Shown here piece after piece: positions 670-19,949 of a stretch of 38,109 bases of DNA. The stretch is from positions 1 to 38,109 of the forward strand of contig DATKNH010000117.1 of assembly GCA_035541455.1 (NCBI GenBank), in the 5' to 3' direction. The stretch's first letter is position 1. Each line of letters begins with the position of its first letter. The notes beneath the pieces were generated by a model that had not been told where the DNA came from, did not search any database, and saw only the letters and a list, made by a program, of their open reading frames with translations. The position numbers and the translations under genes were made by a program. Source of the stretch: Syntrophorhabdales bacterium. Lineage in GTDB: Bacteria > Desulfobacterota > Syntrophorhabdia > Syntrophorhabdales > WCHB1-27.

Positions 670-1377
670 GTGGAAGAAGACAGACTGGTGCAAAAAGCCT
701 ACACTGCTGTCACGGAACATTTTGTGAAGACCGGGAGGGCACCGCACTATACGGAACTTTCAGCAACACTCGGGCTGAGCCCTGAAAAGGCGAGGCAGGT
801 GCAGCGTAAGGCGGCCGAAGCTTCCGTTGCCTGCTGGTTCGTGAACGAGACAGATTATGTTGAGTCATGGGCGCCCTTTTCAAATGTGCCTACCCACTAT
901 CTCATAACCATAAAGGGAGAGCAAAAGTGGTACGGGCAGTGAGGGCTTGAGGCGCTGGCCGTGCGCTGGCTCTTTCCCGGAAGTGAGATTCGCATAGAGA
1001 CGCGTTGCCTGGATTGTGGCGAGCCCATACTTGTTCGAATGCGCGATGAGAATATACTCGAAGTTGATCCAACCACCGCCGTAGGACACGTGAACATCCC
1101 GTTCTCGAATGTGTTAACGGGAAAGGCAACCTGGGGCTTGGCTTGAAGCCGCATGAACCTCTTCCGGTCGGAAGAGCACGTGAAAAATTGGCCACACTAT
1201 GATCCCGTTTCAGCGGAGTCTATCATGCCTTTGTCCAGCTGGGCGCAGGCATTCAGTGGACCACTCATGCGGAATCGTTTGGCGCCGGATTACCTCTCCC
1301 ACGCGAAGGAGTATGCCTCTGAGCTGTTCGTGTCGCTAAAGAACATGGGAAAGGCAGGTCAGTTCTGGACTCCGTAA
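670..1377 (+). CDS. saoL: MerB-like organometallic lyase with two selenocysteines (SaoL-type)
   Basis: GTG start at 670 behind AAAGGAG (657-663); stop TAA at 1375-1377; 235 residues if both in-frame TGA codons (940-942 and 1144-1146) are read as selenocysteine. Residues 1-60 form a helical winged-helix-like domain as in MerB. U91 sits where MerB C96 lies, in the context UGLEAL against CALDTL of E. coli MerB as I remember it. E94 replaces MerB D99. CLDCGEP (C113, C116) aligns with the region of structural C117, and U159 sits where C159 lies, shortly before LFRSEEHVKNW. MerB cleaves carbon-mercury bonds with C96, C159 and D99, so selenolates here would be strong ligands for Hg, As or another soft element. 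No frame change occurs across the gene. A conventional gene caller would report three fragments or a pseudogene. The symbol saoL is from memory of a recently named family. The substrate is not proven. Confidence 0.85.
943..978 (+). promoter_or_regulatory. Candidate bacterial SECIS for selenocysteine 91
   Basis: Directly after the first TGA, GGG (943-945) can pair with CCC (976-978), GAG (949-951) with CUC (970-972), and GCGC (952-955) with GCGC (963-966). The apical loop is UGGCCGU (956-962), with G as its second base. The loop starts 14 nt after the TGA, slightly closer than usual. A 3-nt bulge and a 3x3 internal loop make this weaker than the second element. Confidence 0.5.
1152..1182 (+). 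promoter_or_regulatory. Candidate bacterial SECIS for selenocysteine 159
   Basis: CUCUUCC (1159-1165) pairs perfectly with GGAAGAG (1170-1176) around a GGUC loop (1166-1169). A lower stem of 4 bp (CAUG 1152-1155 with CGUG 1179-1182, one G-U) extends it. The loop begins 20 nt after the second TGA. A 7-bp stem, a loop opening with GG, and this distance match what is known of SelB-binding hairpins; E. coli fdhF also has GGUC in its loop. The codons in the stem also encode the conserved LFRSEE residues. Confidence 0.72.
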
Positions 1378-7989: not shown

Positions 7990-8099
7990 ACTCGACTGTA
8001 GTTCAAAACCATTCTGCACGTCTTTCAATTGGCAGCAAGGTGCACCTCAGTGTCTGCTCCCAAAGTGCGAAAGGCGGAAGAAAATAACCGGAGGTCTTG

Positions 8100-8900
8100 A
8101 TGTCTAATCTCACCATTAAGCAGTTGCTCGAAGCCGGTGTCCATTTCGGGCACCAGACAAAACGCTGGAATCCGAAAATGAAGCCTTACATTTTCGGGGC
8201 CAGAAACGGCATTTACATTATTGACCTGCAGAGGACGTTGAAGATGTTCAAAGAGGCGTATAACTTCGTAAAAGAGGTTGCCTCCCGAAATGAGTATGTA
8301 CTTTTTGTGGGGACGAAAAAGCAGGCCCAGGAGGGAATCGTCGAGGAGGCCAAAAGGTGCAGCGCATTCTACGTGAATGTGCGCTGGTTGGGCGGCACCC
8401 TGACAAACTACCAGACGATCGAAAAGAGCATCGACAGGCTTCGCAAGTACGAGGAACTGAAAGGGAGTGACATCTTCAAAGTGCTGCCAAAAAAGGAAGC
8501 TATTAGCGTAGACAAGGAGATAGAGAAGCTGGAAAAGAATCTCGGGGGCATAAAGGGTATGGATCGCCTGCCCGGCGCCCTCTATATTGTTGATCCGAAA
8601 AAAGAGTACATTGCGGTAAACGAGGCTAAGAAACTGGGCATACCAACAGTGGGTATCGTTGATACCAACTGTGATCCCGACGATATAGACTACATTATTC
8701 CCGGGAACGACGATGCCATCAGGGCGATCAAGCTGATCACCAGCAAGATCGCCGATGCGGTTCTCGAAGGTCGCGCTCTGTACGTTGAGGAGTTTGAAGC
8801 CAAGGAAGAAGAGAAGGAGGGCCCAAAGCCTTTCATTGACGAGAGCGTGCTCGAAGAGAAATACGACGAAGATGAGACTGATGGGGCTGATGAAGTATAG
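8100..8900 (+). CDS. rpsB: Ribosomal protein S2
   Basis: Small-subunit protein S2, 266 residues. The ATG at 8100 is preferred over a TTG three bases earlier because CCGGAGG (8088-8094) is 5 nt from the ATG and only 2 nt from the TTG. Family signatures: the start of the N-terminal domain ([14 protein letters not shown]), [14 protein letters not shown], and [10 protein letters not shown] near residue 200. The last 35 residues are a highly acidic tail (EAKEEEKEG to the end), common in this lineage. It heads the long operon running to 15377. Confidence 0.98.
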
Positions 8901-8903
8901 CGT

Positions 8904-9009
8904 GTGAGTCCCAATAGTCATTGGCCCCGAAGGGGTAGCGAGCACGGCTCGCGCGAGAGAGGAGGCTCCACGGACTTTGTTCGTGGAGGGGGCGACGTGA
9001 GTCCCAATA
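8904..9009. repeat. Intergenic insert between rpsB and tsf bounded by 13-nt direct repeats
   Basis: GTGAGTCCCAATA occurs at 8904-8916 and again at 8997-9009, enclosing 80 bp of short palindromes. One is CTCCACG (8966-8972) pairing with CGTGGAG (8982-8988). The direct repeats resemble a target duplication or a slipped repeat. The right part (8982-9009) recurs inverted at 15452-15479. The stem lacks a T-run, so it is not an intrinsic terminator. Confidence 0.55.
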
Positions 9010-9027
9010 AATTGAAGGGAGTGTTTG

Positions 9028-9633
9028 ATGGAAATATCTGCAGAATTAGTTAAGAAACTACGCGAAAAGACAGGTGTAGGGCTCATGGATTGCAAAGAAG
9101 CCCTCAGGTCCGCTAACGGCGACATGGAGAAAGCGGTTGACTATCTGCGCGAGAAGGGTCTGGCAAAGCTGGCGAAGCGCGCGGGACGGGCAGCCACCGA
9201 AGGTTCGATATCGGCTTACATCCACACAGGTGGTAAGGTAGGAGCCATGGTGGAAGTGAACTGCGAGAGTGACTTTGTTGCCAAGACCGGCGAGTTTCAG
9301 GCGTTTGTGAAGGATGTGGTGATGCAGATCACCGCTTCAAATCCGCTCTACGTGAGAAGAGAAGAGGTTCCGGCCGAGGTCCTTGAAAGAGAGAAGACCA
9401 TTTACAGGAACCAGGCGCGGGAGTCGGGGAAACCAGAGAAGATCCTGGAAAAGATAGCTGAGGGAAAATTGGAAAAGTTCTACCAGGAAGTTTGCCTGAT
9501 GGAGCAGCCCTTCATTAAGAACCCGGACATTACCGTGAAAGAATTACTCGAGGAGCTGGTGACAAAGCTCGGCGAACACATCCTGATCAGAAGGTTTGTC
9601 AGATTTCAACTTGGGGAAACCGTGGAAAGCTAA
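9028..9633 (+). CDS. tsf: Translation elongation factor Ts (short form)
   Basis: EF-Ts recycles EF-Tu from GDP to GTP. 201 residues, shorter than the roughly 280 of E. coli and of the size found in Thermus and many deltaproteobacteria. ATG at 9028 is chosen over TTG at 9025 because AAGGGAG (9015-9021) is 6 nt from it. The N-terminal signature TGVGLMDCKEAL and the core signature ESDFVAKTGEF are present. It abuts pyrH: its TAA (9631-9633) is followed at once by ATG. Confidence 0.97.
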   Translation: MEISAELVKKLREKTGVGLMDCKEALRSANGDMEKAVDYLREKGLAKLAKRAGRAATEGSISAYIHTGGKVGAMVEVNCESDFVAKTGEFQAFVKDVVMQITASNPLYVRREEVPAEVLEREKTIYRNQARESGKPEKILEKIAEGKLEKFYQEVCLMEQPFIKNPDITVKELLEELVTKLGEHILIRRFVRFQLGETVES

Positions 9634-17898: not shown

Positions 17899-18008
17899 TG
17901 TGAGGTTGTACAACAGTTCCCTTCCGGAGGTCAAGCCTGCCTTGTTAACTTTTTCCACGGATGATCGATAACCAGACAAGGAGCAATTCCAGAAGGGATT
18001 GGTGTTTG

Positions 18009-19949
18009 ATGGAGATAGGGCAGGTTTATGCACTGGCTAACCAACTCGCTTCCGTGGTGAGCGCGAGGTACGGCAGGGCCCAAGCCGTTGCGGCCCAGGC
18101 CGTTGCGACCGAAAGCGCAGGTATGGCGCTCGAGCCGAGGCTACCCAGCGAAGACGCTCTTCGGGCGATCGCCACTGGCGTCGCAGAGTATATCGCGACC
18201 AATAAACTCATGTCCGACGAGGGCTATCAGGCGTTCAAGGCAGAGTTTGTTTCGGATATTCCACGAGCCCTCTTGACGTTGAATGAGATGAAACTTGTGG
18301 AGAAGCTTTCTGAGCAATTGCTGGCTCAGACTCAGGTGGTGATGAACCAGCTCACCAATGAGACGGAACCGCAAGTTTCGCCTGCATTCAAACTGCAACC
18401 GGAAATAGCAGCTGCCCAACCAGATGGAAAGAACCTGGGGGAGGCTGACGAAGTGTCTGTTGCCCGCAATTCGGGTGATGTGATTGCGATTGAGATGCCT
18501 GCGCAGATTTCTGGACGCATCTCTCTGGCGTTTATTAAAGCTCCTCTGTTGATCGAAACAGGTCGACGCTCCACGGATGCCGGTCCTGACGAAATTCCCG
18601 CACCACCAATGGAAGAGGTTCCTGCCGGAACGGAAGAAGGAGCCGCAAGCTGGTCGATTCATAATAGCGTCCTGCTATCAGGTGACGAAAGAATCACACC
18701 GACCATCATCTCAACACCTCTTAATCTCGCAGTAAAGCTGCCTGGTGAGCCGATAGTCGTAACCGGGCCTGTTGTTAGGGCGAGCAGCGTTGCCGAAAGT
18801 TCTTCGGTGGCCCCCGTCGCGCAAACGTTCAGCGGCGCCCAGCAGCAGCAGGCGGACTCAGACGTTCCTTTTACACTTTCAAGTGAGGGCCCTGGACATC
18901 CCCTGTTGCGCGCGGACCTCAAGATGTTGCTTGGCGGTAAGACGGGTGAGCTTCGCATTCATTACGATGAAGCACTGATCGTGAGCAAAGTGGCTGTGCT
19001 TGTTGAACAAATGAACGGCCTGGCCCGCATTTACGAAGAACAGGGTAGGAGTGTATCAGCCGGCCGGAAAGAGCCCATTTCTGATGATAGTCCTCTGGTG
19101 CGACAGGTATTGGCCAGTGCACTCGGAATCGTGATGGACAGCAATAAGGTCTTCAGGAATCCGGCCTCCATCGGAATTTCGGCAACACATGACGGCCTGC
19201 TTGCGCTCGACCCAACGCTCTTGAAGACTGCTCTCGCATCACATAAAGAAGAAACTGTAACGATTCTCAAGTCCATAACAGGTTCACTCTACGACAATAT
19301 CGGCCTCTATGTTGATCCCCGAATACTGGCGCGTTTCAGCGAGCTCCTCCAAAGCGGTGTTCCGGACAAAGCTGATCGGTCCAGAAAAGAAGAGGAGCGC
19401 CGCTGGCAAAAGGATAAGGACCTCCTTGATAAGAAGTACATGGAGCTGGAACTCCTGCTGGAAGAGTCGGGGAAACTGCGGGATTGGTTTATGAGCGTGG
19501 TTACGACTCTTGGAAGCGGCACGACGGAAAGCGACCCTGCCGATCACGTCGCGAAGCGACCTTTGCCCGCTGTTGACCTGACCTGGGACGAGGATGATGC
19601 GCCCGTGGTAGACAGACCCGGAGAACCGGGAGAACATCTTGTAGAGCAGTTCGTTGCGTCTACCTCTCTTGCACTGCAGGAGGAAGATGCCGCTGCATCT
19701 ATCAAACTTCTGCTCAGGAGAAAATCTCTGTCCGATAAACTTATTGTCGAGAAGCCGCCATTGGAGCCAAAGACAGCCATGGTCTGTCTTGCGAACGAAG
19801 AACTCGTCATGGAGAAAATCGAGATTGAGCGGCAGAACCTCTTCAAAGAGCTGGATAGGCTTGCAAGGACCACGGCCGCAGCGAGAGGATACCAGTCCCG
19901 TTTTCCGTTGCCGCCGCCTATGGCGGCGTTTGTCTCCAGCGAAGGCTGA
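18009..19949 (+). CDS. Orphan protein with FliD-like C-terminal domain and coiled coil
   Basis: 646 residues from the ATG at 18009 (AGAAGGGA 17991-17998). I do not recognise the protein as a whole. Residues about 1-115 are helical; about 120-320 are low-complexity, Pro/Ala/Ser/Glu-rich and probably disordered. From about 350 the sequence follows the FliD (hook-associated protein 2) C-terminal pattern: DDSPLVRQVLASALG, then ASIGISATHDGLLALDPTLL, then KEETVTILKS. A charged coiled coil follows (KADRSRKEEERRW to ELELLLEESGKLRD, about 470-515), as in FliD. There is no signal peptide or membrane segment, and no flagellar gene is in the window. It may be a divergent filament-cap or adhesin-like protein, or a repurposed FliD. 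The last 130 residues have no assignable domain. A hairpin at 20010-20026 lies downstream. Confidence 0.6.
   Translation: MEIGQVYALANQLASVVSARYGRAQAVAAQAVATESAGMALEPRLPSEDALRAIATGVAEYIATNKLMSDEGYQAFKAEFVSDIPRALLTLNEMKLVEKLSEQLLAQTQVVMNQLTNETEPQVSPAFKLQPEIAAAQPDGKNLGEADEVSVARNSGDVIAIEMPAQISGRISLAFIKAPLLIETGRRSTDAGPDEIPAPPMEEVPAGTEEGAASWSIHNSVLLSGDERITPTIISTPLNLAVKLPGEPIVVTGPVVRASSVAESSSVAPVAQTFSGAQQQQADSDVPFTLSSEGPGHPLLRADLKMLLGGKTGELRIHYDEALIVSKVAVLVEQMNGLARIYEEQGRSVSAGRKEPISDDSPLVRQVLASALGIVMDSNKVFRNPASIGISATHDGLLALDPTLLKTALASHKEETVTILKSITGSLYDNIGLYVDPRILARFSELLQSGVPDKADRSRKEEERRWQKDKDLLDKKYMELELLLEESGKLRDWFMSVVTTLGSGTTESDPADHVAKRPLPAVDLTWDEDDAPVVDRPGEPGEHLVEQFVASTSLALQEEDAAASIKLLLRRKSLSDKLIVEKPPLEPKTAMVCLANEELVMEKIEIERQNLFKELDRLARTTAAARGYQSRFPLPPPMAAFVSSEG

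Follow-up and report, generated by a model that had tools for sequence, protein, structure and literature searches.

Does the stretch between positions 670 and 1377 of the analysed DNA, in which three same-frame ORFs are separated only by TGA codons, represent a decayed gene or one protein that incorporates selenocysteine (Sec) at two positions, and, if the latter, what might that protein do? The window (the whole stretch analysed, 38,109 nucleotides of contig DATKNH010000117.1 from the Syntrophorhabdales bacterium assembly GCA_035541455.1) had been examined in a sequence-only reading, which proposed a MerB-type organometal lyase with Sec at both catalytic cysteine positions, each TGA being followed by a hairpin, and suggested the SaoL family as its identity. 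In what follows, G, C and L numbers denote the genomes, contigs and loci of this analysis, G000 being the genome of the window.

A single reading frame with two in-frame TGA codons

Translation of 670-1377 (+) with TGA read as Sec gives one protein of 235 residues, with U at positions 91 (TGA at 940-942) and 159 (TGA at 1144-1146) and a TAA stop, whereas under table 11 the frame falls into three ORFs. The GTG start is preceded, at a distance of 7 nt, by the probable ribosome-binding site AAAGGAG (656-662) and matches the start of close homologues. The protein matches the Pfam MerB domain (PF03243) at 72 bits (cut-off 27). Profile alignment to MerB and MerB2 chains places U91 on MerB Cys96, Glu94 (949-951) on Asp99 and U159 on Cys159. 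TGA is an ordinary stop in this organism, as 9 of 18 genes checked in the window end in it. The observation made from sequence alone is thus correct, including the hairpin downstream of each TGA described below.

Conservation of both TGA codons in a protein family

A search of 148 related genomes with stops read through revealed 12 further double-TGA loci in other genomes, 39-80% identical over most of their length, and one more locus that is cut by a contig end and shows the first TGA only. A profile search of 395 genomes of the phylum added more. The 29 aligned members each contain two internal stops, always TGA and always at these two columns, and all 29 match PF03243 over the cut-off. A later search of one class gave 8 more distinct loci, all with both TGAs, bringing the total to 37 distinct full-length loci (39-81% identical), none of which has another internal stop. 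Two homologous loci (L096 and L097) have frame breaks but keep a TGA at each site. No member of this clade has Cys or another stop at these positions, so the condition that the sequence-only reading had set for its own refutation was examined and did not refute it. Chance is therefore excluded as an explanation. The homologue in Desulforhabdus sp. TSK is 73% identical. Several genomes carry paralogues of the gene on different contigs (three copies in G126, two in G459, and also G120, G181, G452 and G458), although contamination is not excluded. No relatives were found in viral contigs, and plasmid MerBs are only 21-29% identical.

Selenocysteine machinery and SECIS elements

The genome of the window encodes selA (578 bits), two selB (395 and 387 bits), tRNA-Sec (selC; 71 bits) and selD (363 bits, itself with an in-frame TGA). 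The two SelB genes (G000 contigs C116:112932-114812 and C102:2058-3938; L103 and L104) are 88% identical, reflecting a duplication or a second strain in the assembly. All 26 carriers in the phylum sample have selA, which is consistent with Sec incorporation but weak as a discriminating test, since 355 of the 395 genomes have it.

Each TGA is followed at the right distance by a SECIS-like hairpin. After U159 the sequences form a hairpin at nt 16-33 from the UGA (1159-1176 in the window), comprising a 7-bp stem (CUCUUCC/GGAAGAG) and a GGUC loop, in which 97.9% of cells are paired and two pairs show changes on both sides, far better than any slid register. After U91 a GCUGGC stem (954-970) closes a 5-nt loop with an invariant GU, the loop being CGUGC in the window's own clade; 168 of 168 cells are paired over 28 distinct sequences, with one G-C to C-G flip. 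Synonymous codons are frozen exactly at these elements: F165 is TTC, R166 is CGG and S167 is TCG in 29 of 29 members and L96 is CTG in 28 of 29, although Arg, Ser and Leu use many codons elsewhere and the rest of the gene shows about 95% of the expected synonymous diversity (Mann-Whitney p=3e-4, with sequences that are not independent). Folding energies alone support hairpin 2 only weakly (mean z of -1.1 against a background of -0.16) and hairpin 1 not at all, and codon constraint and pairing were used instead. The sharpest evidence came from loci fetched after the alignment was made. In L122 and L125, Arg166 has become Val or Ala, yet the closing pair C-G has flipped to G-C and the loop GU is kept; the RNA hairpin is conserved where the protein is not. 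The E. coli fdhF SECIS element similarly presents a hairpin just downstream of the UGA with a GGUC-type apical loop at nearly the same distance (nt 22-25, against nt 21-26 here), but in the present family two elements are found in one short gene.

Predicted structure and active site

A model calculated with AlphaFold2 from the family alignment, with Cys standing in for Sec, displays a mean pLDDT of 94.4. Its closest PDB matches are MerB2 (PDB code 5c17; Z of 17.4 over 193 residues) and MerB (PDB codes 3f0o and 3f2f; Z of about 16 for the crystal structures), while unrelated chains reach 8.3 at most. U91, Glu94 and U159 are invariant among the 29 aligned members, and the CLDCG motif (residues 113-117; 1006-1020) is nearly so, its near-invariant Cys pair including Cys113, which aligns with MerB Cys117. 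In MerB the two cysteines hold the mercury and Asp99 assists proton transfer (PMC4525700). As inferred from sequence and fold alignment, the active-site layout is that of MerB, although the Cys96, Asp99, Cys159 triad itself is replaced by Sec91, Glu94 and Sec159. Overall identity to MerB is only about 20%, and the protein scores far below the NCBIfam MerB cut-offs (31.2 against 193 bits and 27.4 against 200 bits).

Genomic context and association with hgcA

Clustering of all ORFs within about 9 kb of 34 loci gave no recurring neighbour family, the first seven clusters being overlapping frames of the gene itself, and no mer genes or any conserved partner were found beside it. In the window the gene is convergent with a molybdopterin oxidoreductase and lies near ordinary housekeeping genes. 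Two long ORFs of the window, at 8025-9125 (-) and 17961-19949 (+) (366 and 662 residues), have no Pfam match at E<=1e-5.

In contrast with the absence of conserved neighbours, a co-occurrence with the mercury-methylation gene hgcA was observed. In one and the same 395-genome sample, hgcA occurs in 21 of 26 carriers against 97 of 369 non-carriers (Fisher p=4e-8; 19 against 95 and p=1.7e-6 if only hits over the cut-off count). When stratified by family the excess remains (21 observed, 14.9 expected, permutation p=8e-4), and with genome size added p=0.003. These values should be read with some caution, as family membership was transcribed by hand from lists that omit 20 selA-negative genomes, the genomes are related and many are incomplete assemblies. 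By contrast, there is little link to merA, which occurs over its cut-off in only 2 of 26 carriers, against 16 of 369 others. The genome of the window has hgcA over the cut-off on contig C134 (L114), beside an HgcB-like ferredoxin sequence and ORFs that look like arsR, an ACR3 arsenite transporter and an arsenate reductase, all recognised by eye.

Proposed function

The most plausible explanation of these data is a stand-alone organomercurial lyase of the MerB fold in which both metal-binding catalytic residues are Sec. The sequence evidence shows that two UGA codons are read as Sec91 and Sec159 through two SECIS hairpins, giving a predicted MerB-fold protein with U91, E94 and U159 where MerB has C96, D99 and C159, and this double-Sec reading is near certain. 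The presence of selenium in the protein itself, cleavage of the Hg-C bond, substrate and mechanism are inferred. In this view, the selenolates would capture R-Hg+, most likely CH3Hg+ made by the cell's own HgcAB or by its neighbours; both selenolates would chelate the metal and polarise the Hg-C bond, and E94 would help to pass a proton to the leaving carbon, releasing RH (methane) and leaving Hg(II) held by two Se, later removed by small thiols, sulfide or another protein. Because merA is usually absent, the Hg(II) is probably exported, precipitated as sulfide or re-methylated rather than reduced. The lyase assignment rests on the fold, the conserved acid and the hgcA association and is held with moderate confidence, with less confidence in the exact substrate. 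It is weakened by the absence of hgcA from 5 of 26 carriers and its presence in many non-carriers, by the absence of mer genes or any conserved partner beside the gene, by the replacement of Asp99 with Glu, whose competence is presumed, and by the possibility that Hg(II) release from two selenolates may be slow; the lack of folding-energy support for hairpin 1 also counts against the explanation as a whole.

The interpretation offered from sequence alone is thus partly supported: the MerB-type fold (predicted), Sec at both catalytic positions, Glu in place of Asp99 and the presence of selA, selB, selC and selD hold, whereas the SaoL name does not, and its argument that tighter metal binding by selenolates may imply a substrate different from that of MerB remains inference. 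It is possible, although unlikely on present evidence, that the same double-Sec lyase acts on another organometal or organometalloid (methylarsenite, organotin, organolead or methylated tellurium) and that the hgcA link reflects a shared anaerobic habitat. Glu for Asp99 and Sec for Cys could shift specificity, and neither a merA link nor mer neighbours were found, but the hgcA association survives family stratification and genome size, and the fold and residue layout are those of MerB. A non-catalytic selenolate trap or chaperone, binding Hg(II) or CH3Hg+ in methylators for storage or delivery, is somewhat less likely still. Selenolates hold Hg very tightly and no dedicated Hg(II) acceptor such as MerA is present in most carriers, yet the invariant acid E94 at the proton-relay position and the complete MerB active-site layout suggest catalysis.

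A pseudogene, or a TGA reassigned to an ordinary amino acid, is all but excluded. Although the frame is broken twice under table 11 and L096 and L097 have frame breaks, the same two TGAs in all full-length homologues down to about 40% identity argue decisively against it, as do the SECIS constraint, the Sec machinery and the use of TGA as a stop in the window. Membership of the SaoL family is very unlikely, for the reasons given in the following section.

Net methylmercury in sediments depends on methylation minus demethylation. Methylation by HgcAB is known, but how anaerobes without canonical MerB degrade methylmercury is an open question, and a large 2021 survey reported that none of the genomes encoding MerB without MerA carry hgcAB (PMC8261052). 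A MerB-type gene that standard annotation splits into three fragments would escape such a survey, and its co-occurrence with hgcA would change that picture. Tentatively, and with slightly less than even likelihood, the family may represent an unrecognised selenium-based methylmercury demethylase with two catalytic Sec residues, carried chiefly by mercury-methylating Desulfobacterota-type bacteria, giving methylators their own merA-independent demethylation and overlooked because annotation breaks the gene at both UGA codons. As far as could be found, it would also be the first lyase with selenium at both metal-gripping positions.

Relationship with SaoL and other selenocysteine-containing sequences

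SaoL (NF040728), the MerB-like organometallic lyase of the SAO system (the Sec-assisted organometallic system), is the nearest named selenoprotein and, similar to the present family, is a MerB-like selenoprotein with a presumed organometal substrate. It is the best NCBIfam match of the protein, but at 45.3 bits against a cut-off of 140, and no other NCBIfam model matches the family. The genome of the window has no SaoL over the cut-off. SaoL has a single Sec in a CU motif (PMC13188914, Table 1), which is lacking here. A true SaoL found in a genome of the same phylum (L110, G291:C22:26008-26394; 148.5 bits) reads CAID...GCU, thus keeping Cys96 and Asp99 with its Sec at the MerB C160 position, whereas the present family reads U(G/A)xE...U(S/A), with Sec159 followed by Ser or Ala. 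No protein family recurs beside the gene and its neighbours in the window are ordinary genes, as judged by ORF clustering and domain matches rather than by profiles for SaoB, SaoC, SaoP, SaoT and SaoX; the association found here is with hgcA, not with a sao operon. The table of 119 selenoprotein families in a 2026 review (PMC13188914) lists no double-Sec MerB, and full-text searches found no description of one, although a mention in the two original Haft papers that define SaoL and related selenoproteins cannot be excluded. The protein probably works like a MerB, but should be filed neither as canonical MerB nor as SaoL.

Other variants were observed in the genomes searched. L021 (G079:C171:6535-6990) is a MerB-like protein with Cys96 and Asp99 but TGA at the Cys159 position only, a possible single-Sec MerB variant. 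L060 (G387:C171:4566-5147), a longer MerB-like protein, has TGA (FTUDC) where its close relative L059 (G353:C306) has TGC (FTCDS), which may reflect a real Sec or a point mutation. Finally, two matches to the MerA profile (G260:C109:14250-15620 and G164:C25:44971-46341; about 411 bits, under the cut-off) contain one in-frame TGA and are possible Sec-containing disulfide oxidoreductases.
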